A stretch of 34,015 nucleotides of DNA, taken from the IMG/VR virus record IMGVR_UViG_3300008448_000333, positions 1 to 34,015 of that record. One strand, written 5' to 3'. Positions 18,342-34,015 of this stretch are shown here, piece by piece. This DNA comes from a virus. Both the position numbers and the translations under genes were made by a program. The notes under the pieces are model-generated. The model saw only the letters and a list, made by a program, of their open reading frames with translations. It was not told the DNA's origin and did not search any database. Every line of letters starts with the position of its first letter. The first letter of the stretch is position 1.

Positions 18342-19789
18342 TGGATTACTTCTACGACGGACAGATAAGAAGATATGTCACGCAGTTCATGCGTGTGTTC
18401 ATAGGATTCAAATATAAAACAGGAGGATCGGTTCCTGAGGAAAGACACATTCCTGTGATGTACGGAGACATGACCAGACAGGTAGCTGGAATTATCAAAG
18501 ACAATTCTGAAAATAAAATGTCTACGGTTCCAAAGGTCGCTTGTTATATTTCGGGACTTGAGTTAGATACATCACGATTAGCAGATCCAACTTTTATTAG
18601 CAAAGTCCAGATCAGAGAACGATCTTATGAATTCGATAACACGGGAGATCCTGTGTATAGTGGTAGCCAAGGTGGGGGCTATACCGTAGAAAGACTCATG
18701 CCGACTCCGTTTAAACTTACTATGAAGTGCGACATATGGACATCTAACACTGATCAAAAATTACAGATACTAGAACAGATTTTAGTGCTGTTTAATCCTA
18801 GCTTAGAAATACAGACCACTGATAATTATCTAGATTGGACTAGTTTAAGTGTTATCTATATCAATAATATTAATTTCAGTTCGAGGACTATACCTCAGGG
18901 AGCAGAGTCAGAAATAGATATCTGTACTTTAGAATTTGAAATGCCTGTATGGATCACTCCGCCTGCTAAGGTCAAGAGATTGGGTATAGTAAGGTCTGTG
19001 ATCTCTAATGTGTTTTCTGAAAACGGCGATGTTCTTAATCTCAGCGATCTTTCATTCAACCTAGGAAACAGAGGAGCGGACGTATCTGTGCGTAGAACCA
19101 ACGACAACTATAGCATACTGTTGTTAAGTGCAAATAATCCCGGACTGCCTAATTTATATAATCTTTCTATATTAGATGTAAATCAAATAGCTAATGTACT
19201 ACAAATACCTCTTACAAATAAATTTGGCAAAGATATAAATTGGGAAACCGTGTTAGAGCAACAAGGAGGTTATATCGCTGGCTTAAGTAAAATACACTTT
19301 TTACAGCCCAGTGGTTATGAGGTCACTGGTACCTTTACAGTAAATGCGTTAGATCCTAACTACCTGTCAGTTACCATTGACAGAGATACTGTACCGTCTA
19401 ATACTTTAGATGCGTTAACTGCCATAATAGATCCTTACAATTTTAATCCTAAAAAGACATTTAACGGAATATCGAATATACCTGTAGGCACTAGATATCT
19501 GATGTTAGACGCTGTGAACAGCAGTGTAAATAGAGGCCAATCTGGTTATGACGGTCCCGATGCTTGGAAAAATCTAGACAGTTCTGATCCTGAAATCTTA
19601 GAAAATTCAATCATAGAATGGAACGGTGACGAGTGGGTCACTGTTTTTACTCCAACGGAACAAAATGAAAATAATTATGTAACCAATTTGACCACAGGCA
19701 TCCAGTATAAGTGGGATGGTCAACAATGGTTAAAGAGTTTCGAAGGCGAATACACTGCCGGGTTCTGGAGATTCGATCTAGATGCATAA
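18341..19789 (+). CDS. 15: Tail completion / sheath stabiliser protein gp15-like
   Basis: A 482-residue protein; T4 gp15 has 272. The N-terminus MDYFYDGQIRRYVTQFMRVF aligns by eye with T4 gp15 (FYNSSFRRYATLMGDLF). The HIPVMYGDMTRQ segment, PFKLTMKCDIWTSNTDQKLQ ILEQILVLFNP and FEMPVWITPP also match the T4 arrangement. gp15 caps the finished tail and binds the neck. The C-terminal 230 residues are extra and end with Trp modules (IIEWNGDEWVTVF; GIQYKWDGQQWLKSF). Translation is coupled to the upstream gene (TAATG). Confidence 0.88.
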   Translation: MDYFYDGQIRRYVTQFMRVFIGFKYKTGGSVPEERHIPVMYGDMTRQVAGIIKDNSENKMSTVPKVACYISGLELDTSRLADPTFISKVQIRERSYEFDNTGDPVYSGSQGGGYTVERLMPTPFKLTMKCDIWTSNTDQKLQILEQILVLFNPSLEIQTTDNYLDWTSLSVIYINNINFSSRTIPQGAESEIDICTLEFEMPVWITPPAKVKRLGIVRSVISNVFSENGDVLNLSDLSFNLGNRGADVSVRRTNDNYSILLLSANNPGLPNLYNLSILDVNQIANVLQIPLTNKFGKDINWETVLEQQGGYIAGLSKIHFLQPSGYEVTGTFTVNALDPNYLSVTIDRDTVPSNTLDALTAIIDPYNFNPKKTFNGISNIPVGTRYLMLDAVNSSVNRGQSGYDGPDAWKNLDSSDPEILENSIIEWNGDEWVTVFTPTEQNENNYVTNLTTGIQYKWDGQQWLKSFEGEYTAGFWRFDLDA

Positions 19790-19794
19790 TAAGT

Positions 19795-20193
19795 ATGAGT
19801 ATGCAACAGAGAGCAGGACTATTATTTCTAGCCAAGAACACAGGTCGTATATTGTTAATAGACGAAGATTCTCGCTGGACAGTTCCTACTTTTGGTCGTA
19901 AATCAAATCTTTTAGAAGACTCTCAAGACTTGATCTCTGATTACAGTGCTGGTAGATTAATACCCATAGAGCTGTATCTCAGCGAAGACCGAGGTTTTGA
20001 ATATGGAACATATGTTTGCTTAGTTGATCAAGAGTTCCTTACCACTGCTGCTCCCACGCTGTGTTGGGCACAGTTAGACCACTTGCCTAAGAATTTGCAT
20101 AATGGTTTGAAAACCACATTAAATAATCAAATTATAAGAACTAAAATAGAAACTATATTGGAGTTAGACGATGCTGTCACTGTTAAAAAATGA
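19795..20193 (+). CDS. NUDIX-fold-like protein with a degenerate NUDIX box
   Basis: The start is the ATG at 19795, 5 nt after the gp15 stop, giving 132 residues. The beginning (AGLLFLAKNTGRILLIDED, SRWTVPTFGRK) and the later LCWAQLDHLPKNLHNGLKTTL resemble the strand and tail elements of phage NUDIX hydrolases. The NUDIX box itself (GX5EX7REUXEEXGU) should lie at about residues 34-56 but reads GRKSNLLEDSQDLISDYSAG, without the REUXEE core. It is therefore probably inactive as a NUDIX enzyme, or a structural derivative. It is embedded in a virion operon. The fold call is moderate. Confidence 0.6.
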   Translation: MSMQQRAGLLFLAKNTGRILLIDEDSRWTVPTFGRKSNLLEDSQDLISDYSAGRLIPIELYLSEDRGFEYGTYVCLVDQEFLTTAAPTLCWAQLDHLPKNLHNGLKTTLNNQIIRTKIETILELDDAVTVKK

Positions 20194-28173: not shown

Positions 28174-28449
28174 ATGTCCAAATCATCAAAAACGATTAAA
28201 ATTTATGATAAAAATTCAGACAGTATAAATCCTATTTTTGTCAAAGGGAACAGAATCGTAATTAAAAAATATCAGCACATTTTAGATAAAATCAAGGAAG
28301 ATTTTAACAAAACCAAGGAACTCAAAAAGCTTTGGCTAGAAGAATTTAACGCTAAATTGGTTACAGATCGTAGTACCAAAAAATGGCGGGAAATCAAATT
28401 CGGGGATATAAAAGATAAGACGATATTTCTTTTTAGGATTATTGATTAG
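28174..28449 (+). CDS. Small basic hypothetical protein
   Basis: A 91-residue Lys-rich protein (MSKSSKTIKIYDKNSDSINP). It looks like a short strand-rich start followed by a long helix (YQHILDKIKEDFNKTKELKK LWLEEF) and a strand-rich end. No family is recognised. It is a lone plus-strand gene between two minus-strand tail genes, with its own late promoter, and its last 11 nt overlap the end of the converging 117-aa gene. Its basic character could suit nucleic-acid or virion binding, but nothing specific is visible. Confidence 0.7.
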   Translation: MSKSSKTIKIYDKNSDSINPIFVKGNRIVIKKYQHILDKIKEDFNKTKELKKLWLEEFNAKLVTDRSTKKWREIKFGDIKDKTIFLFRIID

Positions 28450-28792
28450 GGTCTATCCAGATCTGCTTGCTTTCTAGAGTCACTCCAAGATCTTTGCATC
28501 TGTTAATCACTTGATCTACAGCATCGGGTCCAAAAAATTTTTCTATACCCTTTTGCACATCCATGAACAGGTTATATGTAATTATATAAAATTCTGTGTG
28601 AGGATGCCACGCAGCATACACTCCTAGATTCCCTTCTTCAAAATGCAACTCTTCCCAGATATCTATATCATCGATAGTCGGAGTCCTGGGATCTTTCCAG
28701 GGTTCGGAAACGGGCAGTGATTTTATCTGAGGATCAAATATACCGCTATACCAGGGAGAATTTAAAATATTTTCAAATCTTTTAAATCTCAT
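28439..28792 (-). CDS. Uncharacterised virion-block protein, paralogue A
   Basis: A 117-residue protein with the core DDIDIWEELHFEEGNLGVYA AWHPHTEFYIITY and an end QIWIDPNQ. It is clearly related to the neighbouring upstream gene: both share D-I/V-D-I-W-E-x-L-H, G-x-L-G-V-Y-x-x-W-x-P-x-x-E-F-Y-x-I-T and the ending L-E-x-x-x-I-W-x-D. Similar proteins occur in T4-like phages without known function. The ATG directly follows the stop of paralogue B. Placement among fibre and adhesin genes suggests a tail role. Confidence 0.75.
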   Translation of the reverse strand: MRFKRFENILNSPWYSGIFDPQIKSLPVSEPWKDPRTPTIDDIDIWEELHFEEGNLGVYAAWHPHTEFYIITYNLFMDVQKGIEKFFGPDAVDQVINRCKDLGVTLESKQIWIDPNQ

Positions 28793-29233
28793 TTATATGA
28801 TAATTTTTGCAGGAACTGGTGTTGGTGTTGATTGATACAACCAAAGTTCGCTGTCGTCTACCCAGATTTTATGAGTTTCTAAAACCATATTGAAATCTCT
28901 AGCACGTTTTAAAACTTTTTGTTGAGCGCCTGAACCGTAATAGGTTTCTATTTTTCTTTGATTGACATACTCTTCTGGACGTTTAGGATACCATCCTGTG
29001 GTGATCATATAAAACTCTGCGTACGGAGACCAAGAGACGTAAACACCAAGCCCGCCAGACGATTCATGTAAAACTTCCCAAATATCAACATCTTCTATCT
29101 GCATCTCCCTATCATAGGTCCACTGGGTCTGTGGAGGGAAAGTTGGTCGATCAGAATCGTAGATGTTGCGATTATATAATTCGTCGTAATCTGGGCGTTG
29201 AAGTATCGTATAAGTCGTTTTAAATTGTGCCAT
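28793..29233 (-). CDS. Uncharacterised virion-block protein, paralogue B
   Basis: A 146-residue protein with the core EDVDIWEVLHESSGGLGVYV SWSPYAEFYMITTGWY and the end LETHKIWVDDSELW. It is the longer tandem copy of the gene downstream, with an extra C-terminal tail (LYQSTPTPVPAKIII) and a longer N-terminus. The ATG lies 1 nt after the stop of the glycine-rich gene, so both paralogues are expressed from the late promoters upstream of that gene. Function unknown; a baseplate or fibre-accessory role is inferred from position. Confidence 0.75.
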   Translation of the reverse strand: MAQFKTTYTILQRPDYDELYNRNIYDSDRPTFPPQTQWTYDREMQIEDVDIWEVLHESSGGLGVYVSWSPYAEFYMITTGWYPKRPEEYVNQRKIETYYGSGAQQKVLKRARDFNMVLETHKIWVDDSELWLYQSTPTPVPAKIII

Positions 29234-29234
29234 A

Positions 29235-30188
29235 TCAAGGGAAAGTATATCTAACGATGATCACTCCAGGACTTCCATTGCCACCAACAGGTCCTGGTGA
29301 TGCACCGCCGCCACCACCACCACCGCCTCGGTTATCTCCACCGGCTTGGGGTGCTGGCTGACCTGCGTTGCTCTGCGGACAGTTTGGTCCGCCACCAATG
29401 CCTCCCACGTTGGAGCCACCGGTACCACCTTGCGGGCCTCTCGGAACGCTGCCACCGCCACCGCCACCACCTGAATATACTGTAGAGTTAACAGGCCAAG
29501 TTGTGCCGCTGCCGCCTGGACCACCCGGACCACCTGGAGTTGGATTGCCGCTGCCACCTGAGCCACCGCCACCTGCTGCATAAAAAGTACCAGATGTTCC
29601 TCCTGGATTTCCTTGTCCCGGGGTTCCGTTTCCGTTCGCAGAAGGGTTAGCTCCAGCACCGCCTCCAGATCCACCAGGACTAGCACTCGCTGAAGGACTG
29701 CCGCCACCGCCACCGCCAGTGGCTGTTACAGGAGCCGGGCCTCCAAATGCAGTATTACCGCCTTGGTACGTAGCTCCCGGGTTACGTGTGTTCGGAGGAC
29801 CACCGTTACCACCAGTTCCAACACTGGTAGGATAGGTTCCTGCCTCCAGTGTCACAGTTCCGGAAGCATATCCGCCTGCTCCACCGCCGCCACCTGCACC
29901 AGCATCTCCAATATCACAACCGCCGCCACCGCCTGCACCGATTATAAGATAATCTGCTGATTTACTAGCCGATCCTGATGTGAGCGCGATTTTATCTGCG
30001 TACTGTTGGTATTTAGGATTAAGTAGAACTTTTAATTCGCTTTGTCCTCTGAGAAATGTATGAATTCTGTATCCGCCTGCGGTAACTACAGAATCTCCAC
30101 CTTCTATAATCCATAGATCCTTTGGTAGATCTACGGCATTTGGTTGTTCTTGTAGATGATTTTTTCTAATGCTAGTTATAAATGGCAT
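29235..30188 (-). CDS. Glycine-rich adhesin-like tail protein
   Basis: A 317-residue protein. Residues 1-75 form a normal domain (WIIEGGDSVVTAGGYRIHTF). From about 80 onwards there is a glycine-rich region with runs of 6-8 Gly and repeated Gly-Pro-Gly units (GGPGGPGGSG, PGGSGGGAG), ending in SPGVIIVRYTFP. This plan matches glycine-rich proteins of phage tails that end in GVIIVRY; some distal fibre adhesins (gp38-type) fold their Gly runs as packed polyglycine-II helices. It may contact the host receptor. Two late octamers lie upstream; the nearer gives a 21-nt leader with GGGAG. Gly/Pro content next to an oxygenase cluster is noteworthy. Confidence 0.8.
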   Translation of the reverse strand: MPFITSIRKNHLQEQPNAVDLPKDLWIIEGGDSVVTAGGYRIHTFLRGQSELKVLLNPKYQQYADKIALTSGSASKSADYLIIGAGGGGGCDIGDAGAGGGGGAGGYASGTVTLEAGTYPTSVGTGGNGGPPNTRNPGATYQGGNTAFGGPAPVTATGGGGGGSPSASASPGGSGGGAGANPSANGNGTPGQGNPGGTSGTFYAAGGGGSGGSGNPTPGGPGGPGGSGTTWPVNSTVYSGGGGGGGSVPRGPQGGTGGSNVGGIGGGPNCPQSNAGQPAPQAGGDNRGGGGGGGGASPGPVGGNGSPGVIIVRYTFP

Positions 30189-30209
30189 TGGTTAACTCCC
30201 GTGATATGA

Positions 30210-30217
30210 TATTTATC
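30210..30217 (-). promoter_or_regulatory. Late promoter GATAAATA (proximal) for the glycine-rich gene
   Basis: GATAAATA, followed by a 21-nt leader with a GGGAG Shine-Dalgarno before the ATG at 30188. Confidence 0.7.
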
Positions 30218-30246
30218 TATTAAACTGATGAACATATTACAGTTTC

Positions 30247-30254
30247 TATTTATC
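30247..30254 (-). promoter_or_regulatory. Second late promoter-like GATAAATA upstream of the glycine-rich gene
   Basis: An identical GATAAATA octamer 37 bp further upstream on the same strand. It could be a second start site giving a 58-nt leader, or a chance match in A/T-rich DNA. Confidence 0.45.
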
Positions 30255-30274
30255 GTTTTTTAGCGGTTCGCAGT

Positions 30275-30282
30275 GTTAAATA
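30275..30282 (+). promoter_or_regulatory. Late promoter GTTAAATA for the oxygenase cluster
   Basis: GTTAAATA (six of eight consensus bases) is followed by AAAGCC (6 nt) and the ATG at 30289, the same near-leaderless spacing as many late genes here. Confidence 0.6.
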
Positions 30283-30288
30283 AAAGCC

Positions 30289-30801
30289 ATGATCGTAAAA
30301 AAAGACAATATACTCGCTGATGCAGATCTTGCACATCTGCAACAATCTCTGCTAGGAAACGATTTTCCTTGGTTTTATTTTCCTTATAAAGTAGGTAAAA
30401 ATTACAGCGATTATAAGGGCAACGAATTTGACTTTCAATTTCAGCACATTTTTTACAATAACTACTCTGCGCAAAGCAGATACATTGATGTATTGCAACC
30501 TTTGATAAATTTTTTAAATCCATCTGCGTTAGTGAGAATCAAAGCAAACCTAACAACGAGAACGCAGGATATAATCAAATACCCTATGCACGTAGATTTT
30601 GAAAATTTCAACGGTGAGACTGCTATATTTTACGTAAATTCTAACAATGGTTTTACTGAATTTGAATCGGGCGAAATTATCGAATCAACAGCTAATAGGA
30701 TGATTATTTTTCCCGCTGATATGCGACACACAGGAACGACTAGTTCTGATGAGAAAGTGAGATGTGTAATTAATTTTAATTATTACAAATGGAAAAATTG
30801 A
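30289..30801 (+). CDS. 2-oxoglutarate/Fe(II)-dependent oxygenase-like protein 1
   Basis: A 170-residue protein with a compact double-stranded beta-helix signature: the iron ligands H101 and D103 (PMHVDFEN), distal H147 (MRHTG) and R158 (VRCVINFNYY) for 2-oxoglutarate. The segment GETAIFYVNSNNGFTEFESG between the ligands is typical of small phage and marine bacterial members. Such enzymes hydroxylate proteins, nucleic acids or small molecules using O2 and 2-oxoglutarate; the substrate cannot be read from the sequence. First gene of a plus-strand cluster and transcribed from a late-type promoter. Its end overlaps the methyltransferase start by 13 nt. Confidence 0.8.
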   Translation: MIVKKDNILADADLAHLQQSLLGNDFPWFYFPYKVGKNYSDYKGNEFDFQFQHIFYNNYSAQSRYIDVLQPLINFLNPSALVRIKANLTTRTQDIIKYPMHVDFENFNGETAIFYVNSNNGFTEFESGEIIESTANRMIIFPADMRHTGTTSSDEKVRCVINFNYYKWKN

Positions 30802-31361
30802 ACTATTCTTTTAACGACAAGTACAATGACGGCCAGAGTTTGGTGCACCTAATAAATTTAAAATTAGGATCGAATCTCATAGGTTTAGAACTAGGAGTTT
30901 TTAAGGCTCATACTTTCTGCACGTTTTTATCAAATTGTCCAAATATTGAAAAATTATACGGAATAGACGCATTCTTACCTTATGTTGATCAATTGGCAGA
31001 TCCGCCTATTATGTGGGACGAAAAAGCTGTAGATTGTATAAAACACACTGCTATACACAACATTAGATTTTGTGATAATAATCACAAAGCAGAATTAATT
31101 GAAGAGGATAGCTCAAAGGCTTTAGGATTATTCGACGATAAAACTTTCGATTTTATATTCATAGATACTTATATGACTAAAGAACAAAGCGACAAAGACC
31201 TTTGTGAATGGTATCCGAAACTGAAAACTGGGGGTTTATTTTCTGGGCACGATTGGGACAGCGTATTGATTCAACAGTCTGTTCTCGAATTTAGAGATAA
31301 AGAACATATTACTGCACAGCTTAGTTGTTTTGACAACACATGGTGCTGGATCAAAGAATAG
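30789..31361 (+). CDS. Class I SAM-dependent methyltransferase
   Basis: A 190-residue Rossmann-fold methyltransferase. Motif I is IGLELGVFKAHT (31-42), followed by the acidic residue that binds the ribose (YGIDAF, D60). The later motif is FDFIFIDTYMTKEQSDKDLC EWYPKLKTGGLFSGHDW, where IDTYMTKE and the GG-xxx-GHDW pattern resemble the Methyltransf_24-type proteins often found with sugar or small-molecule modification genes. There is no DNA-methyltransferase catalytic motif, so protection of phage DNA is unlikely. Translation is coupled to the upstream oxygenase by a 13-nt overlap. Substrate unknown. Confidence 0.8.
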   Translation: MEKLNYSFNDKYNDGQSLVHLINLKLGSNLIGLELGVFKAHTFCTFLSNCPNIEKLYGIDAFLPYVDQLADPPIMWDEKAVDCIKHTAIHNIRFCDNNHKAELIEEDSSKALGLFDDKTFDFIFIDTYMTKEQSDKDLCEWYPKLKTGGLFSGHDWDSVLIQQSVLEFRDKEHITAQLSCFDNTWCWIKE

Positions 31362-31391
31362 TTGATAATGATTTTGATCGTTAAAGCGGCC

Positions 31392-31399
31392 TTTAAATA
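31392..31399 (+). promoter_or_regulatory. Late promoter TTTAAATA for the second oxygenase
   Basis: TTTAAATA (seven of eight consensus bases), then an 18-nt leader with AGGA before the ATG at 31418. A small TTAAAG/CTTTAA inverted repeat overlaps its 5' side. Confidence 0.6.
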
Positions 31400-31417
31400 T
31401 AATATTAGGAATAATTT

Positions 31418-32047
31418 ATGACATCTATGGTAAATGGGATATTTCCCGGAGAAATTAAAGCCAGCACAACAGTAGCTGGTTGTATTGATATTTTTGAAAA
31501 TGCCTGGCCAAATCCATCTGAAACTATAAAGATGGTCGAAGAAGAAGCATCCAATCCAGACAGCGGAGCTTTTTGGGAACAGGCAGGAACTGTAACCGAT
31601 GGGCCCTTTCAAAATTATAGAACCAATAAGTTGATGGCTATTACACATTTGGCTCAGGTAAGCGGTAATCCCGTTCTGCAAAATATTCATAATCAACTTA
31701 ATCTTTTATTATTAGCGTCAACTATACCTTATGCAAAAAGATTAGGCATACAAGAACCGTTTTGGCACGAGGGTTATAATTTATTAAAGTATCGGGGTGG
31801 AGAAGAATATAAGGCACATTATGACGGCGGTACAGCTATGGCCAGAGCAGTATCTGCATTAGTATACCTTAACAACGATTACAAGGGTGGGGAATTAGAA
31901 TTTACACATTTTGGTGTAAAGATCAAGCCTCAGCCTGGAATGTTAATTCTATTTCCTAGTAATTTTGCTTATACACACGTAGCGCATCCCGTAATCGAAG
32001 GAACAAAATATGCCTTGGTTACTTGGATCAGAGATCGACAAATATGA
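31418..32047 (+). CDS. Prolyl-4-hydroxylase-type 2-oxoglutarate/Fe(II) oxygenase
   Basis: A 209-residue protein whose C-terminal half matches the prolyl-4-hydroxylase-like family: YRGGEEYKAHYDGG with H134 and D136, SALVYLNNDYKGGELEFTHF, PQPGMLILFPS, then YTHVAHPVIEGTKYALVTWI with H187 and K198 as the 2-oxoglutarate contact. This is the clearest oxygenase of the cluster. Members hydroxylate proline in proteins or act on small molecules. It has its own late-type promoter and leader. The stop overlaps the next start as ATGA, implying coupled synthesis with the unknown protein downstream. Confidence 0.9.
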   Translation: MTSMVNGIFPGEIKASTTVAGCIDIFENAWPNPSETIKMVEEEASNPDSGAFWEQAGTVTDGPFQNYRTNKLMAITHLAQVSGNPVLQNIHNQLNLLLLASTIPYAKRLGIQEPFWHEGYNLLKYRGGEEYKAHYDGGTAMARAVSALVYLNNDYKGGELEFTHFGVKIKPQPGMLILFPSNFAYTHVAHPVIEGTKYALVTWIRDRQI

Positions 32048-32811
32048 TTTTTAACAAATCTAAAGAAATCGTTTTAGATTGTTTTACTCATGTTCCGTAT
32101 GTCTACGATCATGCAAAAATAGATCATGCAACAAAATTTATTCCAAATTGGTGGAAAGAAACTCCTGCTGTGAATGTTGACAGCGAAGCTACTATTAAAA
32201 ATTGTCCTGGATTTATTGAATTTTATAAAAAAGGCATCGTTATTCCTTCATGGTTTGAAATGGATGTAGATATCTTAGAACAAGGGAATCCTGAATTGTA
32301 TAGATGGCAGGCCAGCAATCAAGATGTTAGTACAGATAACTCTCACAAACCTTCTCAGTTTTTTGGATTTGCTGGCGAGTCTGGTAAAAATATCAAAATA
32401 ACTAGCCCGTGGGCCTTTAGAACCAAAGAAGAAATTTATTTTACCTGGACGCAGCCAACTTGGAATATGAGGGATCTGCTATGCGATTTAACGATATTGC
32501 CAGCAACCGTAAACTATAAATTTCAACACGCTACAGAGATTAATTTTTTTATCGTTAATCAACTGCAGAGTAAAAAAATAAATATTTCACCGTTAACACC
32601 ATTGGCTATTCTGCACCCTCTAACTGAGAGAAAAATAAAAATAAAAAATCATTTAGTAAGCAAAGAAGAATGGCTGAGAATTTTTGGTGTAGATAGGTTT
32701 CTTTTTAGAAGAAATTCAGATGATGCTGTAAAATTTTACAATAGAAAGAAGAAATTGCAAACATCAATAGAAGAAAAATCTTCTTGCCCTTTTAAAAAAT
32801 ACTTTGGATAA
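32044..32811 (+). CDS. Unknown protein of the oxygenase cluster
   Basis: The start is taken as the ATG at 32044, overlapping the previous stop (ATGA), giving 255 residues. Recognisable parts are IVLDCFTHVPYVYDHAKIDH, IPNWWKE, IKNCPGFIEFYKKGIVIPSW, KITSPWAFRTKEEIYFTW and TPLAILHPLTERKIKI. The IKNCPGF...GxVIPxW and SPWxxRT elements recur in uncharacterised proteins of marine viruses, as far as I recall. It may have a cupin-like beta fold, as Trp- and His-containing strands alternate, but I see no confident metal-binding set. It ends with a Lys-rich tail. Its place between two oxygenases suggests a partner or a further modifying enzyme. Confidence 0.75.
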   Translation: MIFNKSKEIVLDCFTHVPYVYDHAKIDHATKFIPNWWKETPAVNVDSEATIKNCPGFIEFYKKGIVIPSWFEMDVDILEQGNPELYRWQASNQDVSTDNSHKPSQFFGFAGESGKNIKITSPWAFRTKEEIYFTWTQPTWNMRDLLCDLTILPATVNYKFQHATEINFFIVNQLQSKKINISPLTPLAILHPLTERKIKIKNHLVSKEEWLRIFGVDRFLFRRNSDDAVKFYNRKKKLQTSIEEKSSCPFKKYFG

Positions 32812-32814
32812 AAT

Positions 32815-33456
32815 ATGAGTACACAAAACGAATTTGCTAAAAAAGGTTATTGTATAGTTAGATCTGCGATATCTGATGAGTTGAGAGATTTTGTAACACA
32901 GACATTGTTATTCGATGAGAGTCAACGATTTGTACCTGGCATCAACGGAGAGGACGCCCAGGTTCCTGGATCATACGCTTCTTATGCTAATCCGATCACA
33001 GAAACAGTTTTACTACATCTACAAAAAACTATGGAAGAAGCTACTGGCTTAAAACTCCATCCTACTTATTCTTATTACAGGATTTATAGAAACGGCGCAG
33101 AATTAGTTAAGCATACTGATAGACAATCTTGTGAAATATCTTGTACTTTGTGTTTTAACTATAGTTACGATGACAAATCATTTAGTTGGCCTATTTACAT
33201 TGCAAACGATTTTCCTGCTGATCTTAAACCGGGTGATATGTTAATTTACCGAGGAATGGATTTGCCCCATTGGAGGTATCCGCTGAATCATTCTGAGGAT
33301 GTTTGGCACGCACAAGGGTTTTTTCATTATGTTAATCAAGATGGGCCCTGTGCCGATTTTAAATTCGATAAGAGGGAGCAGCTAGGATTACTACCGGAAG
33401 AAAAAAGAACACAGATAAAAAGTTTTTCTAATAAATCTTATTTAGAATTCAAATGA
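32815..33456 (+). CDS. 2-oxoglutarate/Fe(II)-dependent oxygenase-like protein 3
   Basis: A 213-residue protein with ligands H100 and D102 (LVKHTDRQSCEISCTL) and a distal LPHWRYPL at 151-157 with H152 and R154, followed by WHAQGFFHYVNQDGP. The N-terminus GYCIVRSAISDELRDFV is typical of phytanoyl-type and related oxygenases. The family pattern KHTDR...LPHW occurs in phage and marine bacterial genes. Starts 3 nt after the previous stop and ends with ATGA overlap to the next gene. Substrate unknown. Confidence 0.85.
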   Translation: MSTQNEFAKKGYCIVRSAISDELRDFVTQTLLFDESQRFVPGINGEDAQVPGSYASYANPITETVLLHLQKTMEEATGLKLHPTYSYYRIYRNGAELVKHTDRQSCEISCTLCFNYSYDDKSFSWPIYIANDFPADLKPGDMLIYRGMDLPHWRYPLNHSEDVWHAQGFFHYVNQDGPCADFKFDKREQLGLLPEEKRTQIKSFSNKSYLEFK

Positions 33457-34015
33457 TAGACTCTTGGTTTCCCACTTTAATTTCTCATGAAGTTTTAGAA
33501 GAATTCAAAGATAGAAATTCTTATTTTTCTAATAAAGCCTATTCTATTCAAAAAAATAATGAAAACTTAACAGGTACATCTTGGAACTGTGATACGTACA
33601 ACACGTTGGGCAAATTTAATTATAAGCTTGATAATGATCAACAAATAAATCAACTGATTAATATCTGTAAATTAAAAGTATTAGAATTTTCTCGGCAGTA
33701 CGGCATCAATAAATCTCTAGATAGTCTTAGCTGTGACGAGCTTTGGTTTAATATTGGAGCTGTGGGAAATTTTCAAGAATATCATCAACACAGTGATTCA
33801 CATTTTAGTCTTGTCTACTATGTTAAAGCAAATAATAATTGCGGAAATATTTTATTTAAAACTATTGAATCTTTTGCAGATATGTGTCAACTGCCTATCG
33901 ATGCCGGTAATTATACATCGGCTTCATATAAAAGCTGTTTTTATACTCCAAAAGAATCGATGATTTTGATTTTTAGATCAAATCTACTACATATGGTAGA
34001 AAAAAACAATAGCGA
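33453..34015 (+). CDS. 2-oxoglutarate/Fe(II) oxygenase-like protein 4 (TIGR02466-like), cut by window edge
   Basis: The frame runs from an ATG at 33453 (MIDSWFPTLISHEVLEEFKD) to the window edge, 187 residues. It shows WFNIGAVGNFQEYHQHSDSH with H113 and D115 as candidate iron ligands, FSLVYYVKANN, and PKESMILIFRSNLLHMVEKN with H180 as distal ligand. The opening 'WFPT...' and the strand order resemble the TIGR02466 family of putative 2OG-Fe(II) oxygenases. The last part, which should hold the 2-oxoglutarate-binding Arg, is outside the window. The ATGA overlap ties it to oxygenase 3. Confidence 0.75.
   Translation, partial: MIDSWFPTLISHEVLEEFKDRNSYFSNKAYSIQKNNENLTGTSWNCDTYNTLGKFNYKLDNDQQINQLINICKLKVLEFSRQYGINKSLDSLSCDELWFNIGAVGNFQEYHQHSDSHFSLVYYVKANNNCGNILFKTIESFADMCQLPIDAGNYTSASYKSCFYTPKESMILIFRSNLLHMVEKNNS

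Follow-up and report, generated by a model that had tools for sequence, protein, structure and literature searches.

Few accessory genes are commoner in marine phages than those for 2-oxoglutarate (2OG)-Fe(II) oxygenases, whose role is still unsettled. Arrays of them are already known (PMC3037559; PMC9964418); the second of these papers gives ten 2OG oxygenases per genome and cites 24 in S-SCSM1. In Kyanoviridae and pelagiphages, the arrays (Syn9 gp45-gp54, S-CREM1 ORF72-80, Mosig EXVC030M 54-60, HTVC008M and HTVC023P) consist of dissimilar short oxygenases by tail or neck genes, including members of phrog_61, phrog_81, phrog_2954 and often phrog_274. A likeness of phage 2OG oxygenases to human prolyl hydroxylases was noted earlier (PMC12774648), and in one set of pelagiphages a gene read as ferrochelatase is reported always to adjoin a 2OG oxygenase (PMC9599517). 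Here we describe a six-gene island made up in the same way, found on a stretch of viral DNA (IMG/VR record IMGVR_UViG_3300008448_000333; 34,015 bases, called the window below). It lies on the plus strand at 30289-34015 and encodes four proteins with an HxD...H motif (g1, g3, g5 and g6), a methyltransferase (g2) and one further protein (g4). The phage is T4-like, with a terminase nearest to those of PA5oct-type phages (54% identity). The island is a small freshwater counterpart of the marine-phage oxygenase arrays; two of its families carry wrong labels in databases, and its best candidate target is a glycine-rich (Gly-rich) tail protein encoded next door.

The oxygenases and the methyltransferase

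The features discussed are as follows.

29235..30188, minus strand: Gly-rich tail protein (Gly_rich_2, phrog_2295), candidate substrate, adjoining the island
30189..30288, no strand: divergent intergenic region (100 bp) that separates the island from the Gly-rich gene, sequence read
30289..30801, plus strand: g1, predicted phrog_274 oxygenase, H101/D103/H147 and R158
30789..31361, plus strand: g2, class I methyltransferase (Methyltransf_24, PF13578)
31418..32047, plus strand: g3, 2OG-Fe(II) oxygenase, phrog_61, H134/D136/H187 and K197
32044..32811, plus strand: g4, phrog_7084/DUF6065-like protein whose core may be dUTPase-like (beta-clip)
32815..33456, plus strand: g5, phrog_2954, predicted Fe(II) oxygenase of prolyl-hydroxylase fold, H100/D102/H152
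33453..34015, plus strand: g6, 2OG-Fe(II) oxygenase, phrog_81, H113/D115/H180, its last 14 residues beyond the window

Profile searches, motifs and a structural model of g5 bear out the initial annotation, which had read the island as four different oxygenases of the 2OG-Fe(II) type with one methyltransferase. All 12 of the ligand residues it named are present in g1, g3, g5 and g6, and the metal triad is invariant across relatives of g1 (n=19), g3 (n=12) and g5 (n=37 diverse members). The four were also rightly held to be too unlike one another for recent duplicates: their pairwise alignments are no better than those of shuffled sequence (z -1.1 to 1.3). The double-stranded beta-helix, whose absence the annotation had named as a refutation, was obtained when structure prediction was run on g5; for g3 and g6 this fold is based on Pfam matches above cut-off, and for g1 on a sub-threshold Pfam match and profile comparison. 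The enzyme class of the island oxygenases is well supported, and the island enzymes would presumably be catalytic, with 2OG-dependent oxidation among their reactions.

Among the more conventional members, g3 matches PF13640 (E 8.4e-16) and phrog_61 (E 2.8e-29) and has a weak Tet_JBP match (E 9e-4); its ligands and K197 are invariant in 12 sequences, K197 lying about 10 residues past the distal His, at the 2OG-anchor position. g6 matches PF13759 (E 5.5e-12) and phrog_81 (E 5e-25), and its candidate 2OG anchor is an Arg at +11 after the distal His, seen in the complete relatives on contigs L029 and L030. The methyltransferase g2 matches PF13578 (E 6.2e-11; 43.6 bits against a cut-off of 26.3).

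The "ferrochelatase" and "DNA endonuclease V" labels

g5 belongs to phrog_2954 (E 6.1e-48), a PHROG labelled "ferrochelatase". The ferrochelatase signature PF00762 matched none of 37 g5-family members, and it exceeded its cut-off in 0 of 15 phage genomes compared with 8 of 14 cellular control genomes. The AlphaFold2 model of g5 is confident (predicted local distance difference test, pLDDT, 90; predicted template modelling score, pTM, 0.86), and Foldseek gave 516 PDB matches at E 1e-3 or better. At the top, with E about 1e-8 and template modelling (TM) scores of 0.51-0.62, were entries of human PHD2 and of the Pseudomonas prolyl hydroxylase PPHD, one of the latter solved together with EF-Tu. 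A ferrochelatase was rejected because PF00762 is missing and the fold matches are hydroxylases. Judged by sequence and model, g5 is an oxygenase-fold protein and "ferrochelatase" a mislabel; two existing records, S-CREM1 ORF80 and 023Pt_psg01, already annotate all or part of a g5-family member as Fe(II) oxygenase.

The second label concerns g1, which matches phrog_274 (E 1.2e-45), a PHROG labelled "DNA endonuclease V". Its PF13640 match falls below the cut-off (E 5e-4), and 13 of 19 family members match PF13640, all weakly. All 19 sequences share H101, D103, H147 and R158, with R158 occupying the 2OG-anchor position, and the g1 profile aligns with that of g3 across the metal motif (E 4.7e-6). 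The Pyr_excise signature PF03013 had no match in the 19 g1-family members, and true PF03013 genes, present in 8 of 15 phages, are distinct from the phrog_274 genes and located elsewhere; T4 endonuclease V (DenV) was rejected as an identity for g1 on both grounds. The motif and profile evidence indicates that g1 is an oxygenase and the endonuclease label wrong. According to a 2010 review (PMC2984593), none of the cyanophages known by that time had denV. In S-H38 (MW117965.1 63301-64460; L058 7398-8557), the endonuclease V label sits on the phrog_274 gene (63301-63933), and the gene directly after it, labelled hypothetical, carries a real PF03013 match.

The g4 protein

g4, whose ATG start at 32044 is backed by homologues, matches phrog_7084 (E 2.2e-11), and 3 of 23 g4 relatives match DUF6065 (E 1.4e-4). 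Its model (pLDDT 86.5) has dUTPases and dCTP deaminases as all of its top Foldseek PDB matches, at E 7e-4 to 9e-3, with query TM scores (TMq) of about 0.3 and high root-mean-square deviation. The dUTPase profile PF00692 gave no match for g4, its best relative reaching E 0.026. In S-CREM1, ORF70, of phrog_7084 like g4, is annotated as a triphosphate nucleotidohydrolase. Because the GIVDxD-like Asp motif of its relatives is absent from g4, we describe it as a putative phrog_7084/DUF6065-like protein, dUTPase-like at most. It is unrelated to g3 by profile comparison, and a phage tblastn search with g4 gave no matches. PDB sequence searches with the g1, g4 and g5 profiles returned nothing useful, the g1 search yielding weak EGLN matches (E 0.2-1) among nanobody matches.

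Genes of the phrog_7084/DUF6065-like family also occur at 52 bacterial loci (L163-L214), mostly in Alphaproteobacteria (Rhizobium, Sulfitobacter, Shinella and others), with neither oxygenases nor halogenases matching the phage profiles alongside. In the haloviruses HJTV-1 and HSTV-2 phrog_7084 lies near a Gly-rich protein, and in L165 (CAKZKU010000079.1) a single gene separates it from that of a PF21722 protein. L165 is binned as a Microbacteriaceae metagenome-assembled genome and looks actinophage-like (tape-measure-like, tail and Gly_rich_2 proteins), with its phrog_7084 gene on the strand opposite its tail genes.

Boundaries and surroundings of the island

The proteins of L029 and L030, two near-identical contigs, are 96-100% identical to those of the window, and g6 is complete in both: it encodes 201 amino acids and shares 4 bp with a convergent tail gene on the minus strand. 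The suggestion that the cluster continues past the window did not hold, since g6 stops about 14 residues beyond it and is followed by this tail gene. With g6 ending against a minus-strand gene on one side and the minus-strand Gly-rich gene on the other, the island is a closed six-gene unit within the tail locus and does not open a longer cluster; the tail genes that flank it on either side lie on the opposite strand. Its description as a translationally coupled run applies to the three of five junctions that overlap (g1/g2, g3/g4 and g5/g6), but not to g4/g5 and g2/g3, which are separated by 3 bp and 56 bp.

The island runs opposite to the structural genes, and no late-promoter-like motif was found in the intergenic region at 30189..30288. 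Neither strand of the window contains the motif TATAAATA, where chance would give 3.5 occurrences, so that the phage may use a different late promoter; CTAAATA occurs in the window at chance frequency.

Elsewhere in the window, two small paralogue-like proteins with no Pfam match are encoded on the minus strand at 28439-28792 and 28793-29233, and short proteins that resemble this pair by eye recur beside arrays in L032, L033, L034 and L042. A protein of about 150 residues at 19711-20193 has a Nudix-box-like stretch, again by eye, and a similar one precedes the freshwater arrays of L033 (1745-2194), L034 (3021-3470) and L042 (1008-1457).

Conservation of the set and the block around it

The expectation that the set travels together was borne out for its core: g3 and g5 occur together in nearly all close relatives, and g1 and g4 often accompany them. 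In the closest relatives the g3-g5 pairing is kept at 50-69% identity. The methyltransferase does not follow this pattern. Relatives of g2 are few, making it nearly private to this island, and it is no fixed member of the cluster, as its relative in L050/L051 stands without any other island gene. Overall, island composition varies strongly between relatives.

Oxygenases concentrate around g5. At least one recognised oxygenase lies within 4 kb at 88 of 94 distinct g5 loci, and across these loci oxygenases make up 28% of genes near g5 against 14 of 284 far genes. In 11 isolate genomes, oxygenase genes likewise cluster round g5 (Fisher P 3e-5, uncorrected for relatedness of the phages). The surroundings are conserved on a larger scale as well: Syn9/Syn10, S-RIM44 and S-CREM1 share a block in the order Gly-rich tail proteins, one or two tryptophan (Trp) halogenases, phrog_7084, oxygenase array and g5, an order conserved across different cyanophage genera. 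Within the Syn10 block, the gene between the second halogenase and phrog_7084 with the array is CPUG_00131 (L215 7497-9089), annotated as hypothetical; it is the flavin halogenase VirX1, the first viral halogenase, with a full-length match to PDB 6QGM. Halogenases also stand in the array run of the freshwater relatives L032-L034 and L042.

Some of these domains are joined in single proteins. Natural fusions link g5 to a full-length Trp halogenase (L042 5446-7587), to a diverged halogenase-like part (L066 4752-6725) and, in S-T4, to a g3-type oxygenase (L159 4983-6143), and they suggest that g5 shares a target with the halogenase and g3-type domains.

What the island might modify

We propose that the island is a protein-modification toolkit and that the best candidate for its target is the phage's own Gly-rich tail-tip adhesin next door, a reading to which we give a probability of roughly 0.4. 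Under this proposal, g1, g3, g5 and g6 would hydroxylate side chains of a protein and g2 would methylate side chains of the same target; the target would be the adhesin encoded beside the island, a choice that follows gene position, and its modification could alter adhesin stability or receptor binding, to the presumed benefit of the phage. The conserved triads, the prolyl-hydroxylase fold of g5, the co-location of the genes, the block order and the g5 fusions all point in this direction, as does the nearness of phrog_7084 to Gly-rich proteins in the haloviruses and in L165. The neighbouring protein matches PF21722 (E 1.8e-19) and phrog_2295 (E 1.5e-27); PF21722 is found in 17 of 24 selected contigs with array genes, and phrog_2295 lies 0.3-11 kb from g5 in all 10 isolate phages that have one, of 11 genomes. 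By whole-genome rotation this closeness gives a Fisher P of 2.4e-4 (relatedness uncorrected). An earlier idea, that the pathway acts on a virion protein, fits a context in which phrog_2295/PF21722 proteins, halogenases and phrog_7084 lie within one block.

Several observations weigh against the proposal. A phrog_2295 match lies within 5 kb of g5 in only two of six cyanophages, the others having it at 8-11 kb (three) or not at all. Randomisation within loci found 63 Gly-rich open reading frames near g5 where 56.2 were expected, no clear excess, so that support for the link comes from the whole-genome rotation only and is modest. Many 2OG oxygenases in the isolate genomes sit far from g5. The window's Gly-rich protein shows no excess of proline-glycine (PG) dipeptides (9 against 9.3 expected) and the cyanophage Gly-rich proteins are Pro-poor, leaving simple collagen-type prolyl hydroxylation unsupported; that version, in which G-X-Y runs are also short, was rejected. 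Finally, from +9 to +19 past the distal His, the usual 2OG-anchor spot, no Arg/Lys is conserved among the 37 g5 sequences, and the placement of g5 in the superfamily accordingly rests on fold and triad; the invariant R89, R103 or R154 could serve as anchor.

The same data can be read as a cargo site, where unrelated small oxygenases accumulate by recombination beside tail genes, each with its own job and with no common pathway. The strongly differing composition, the nearly private g2, the variable tail region and the 2OG genes dispersed through these genomes all favour this, while the persistence of the g3-g5 partnership at 50-69% identity, the gene order kept across cyanophage genera and the g5 fusions speak against it, and we regard it as somewhat unlikely. 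We think it unlikely, too, that the enzymes have an auxiliary metabolic role on host targets or metabolites, such as 2-oxoglutarate pools and nitrogen signalling or, as for PPHD, host EF-Tu. A 2OG/NtcA function was proposed by Sullivan 2010 (PMC3037559), PPHD, with its EF-Tu entry, is among the closest g5 folds, and phrog_61 and phrog_2954 are reported to be enriched in seasonal viruses (PMC11561400); yet draining 2OG needs no crowd of dissimilar adjacent oxygenases in tail loci, the fused g5 proteins suggest a specific target held in common, and the "ferrochelatase" limb of the metabolic argument fails. AlkB- or TET-like DNA repair or base modification, proposed for Syn9 (in a suggestion of Weigele's that PMC2984593 and PMC3037559 cite), seems very improbable: the "DNA endonuclease V" labels that favour it are wrong (no Pyr_excise in g1 relatives, real PF03013 genes elsewhere), the weak Tet_JBP match of g3 is far surpassed by PF13640 (8e-16), the best g5 fold matches are protein hydroxylases, and the island lies in a tail locus.

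The proposal of a modified adhesin can be extended, doubtfully, to a single widespread viral system made up of 2OG oxygenases, flavin halogenases (VirX1), phrog_7084, Gly-rich tail-tip proteins and, in some cases, a methyltransferase. Such a system would decorate the tail tip chemically after translation and allow a wider range of receptor binding than the twenty amino acids provide. If true, it would supply VirX1's missing natural substrate.

Comparison with known systems

The relabelling of g5 and g1, the assignment of g4, the block shared with halogenases, VirX1 and Gly-rich tail proteins, and the g5 fusions are new here; in an incomplete coverage of the literature, we found no paper that corrects the phrog_2954 label or ties the array to tail proteins. 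Part of the published ecology is built on phrog_2954 being a ferrochelatase, and phrog_274 is called endonuclease V in many records; both are contradicted by the present analysis. The "2OG-Fe(II) oxygenase + ferrochelatase" pair of auxiliary metabolic genes (PMC9599517; PMC11561400) consists of the same families, close together: phrog_61, as g3, and phrog_2954, as g5. In those papers phrog_2954 is taken for a haem enzyme, whereas the sequence and fold evidence here points to an oxygenase-fold protein. Compared with PPHD and PHD2/EGLN1, g5 is alike in fold and HxD...H motif but shares only about 16% identity, and in place of a conserved Arg/Lys 9-14 residues past the distal His it has an invariant Arg at +2.

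The rarity implied by the initial annotation gives way before the many phages that hold larger arrays, with up to nine oxygenases in a row in S-CREM1. Beside the Kyanoviridae and pelagiphage arrays, the window island is distinguished by its T4-like phage with a PA5oct-type-nearest terminase (54%), by having four oxygenases only and by its nearly private methyltransferase. It shares a phrog_7084 gene within the array with Syn9, S-RIM44 and S-CREM1, and its orientation opposite to the tail genes with HTVC008M. The VirX1 gene of cyanophage Syn10 lies in a block homologous to the island; no halogenase was seen in the window, whereas its freshwater relatives L032-L034 and L042 have one. Since VirX1, the array and Gly-rich tail proteins belong to one block, the substrate question for both oxygenases and halogenases becomes directly testable on the tail proteins of cultured phages.

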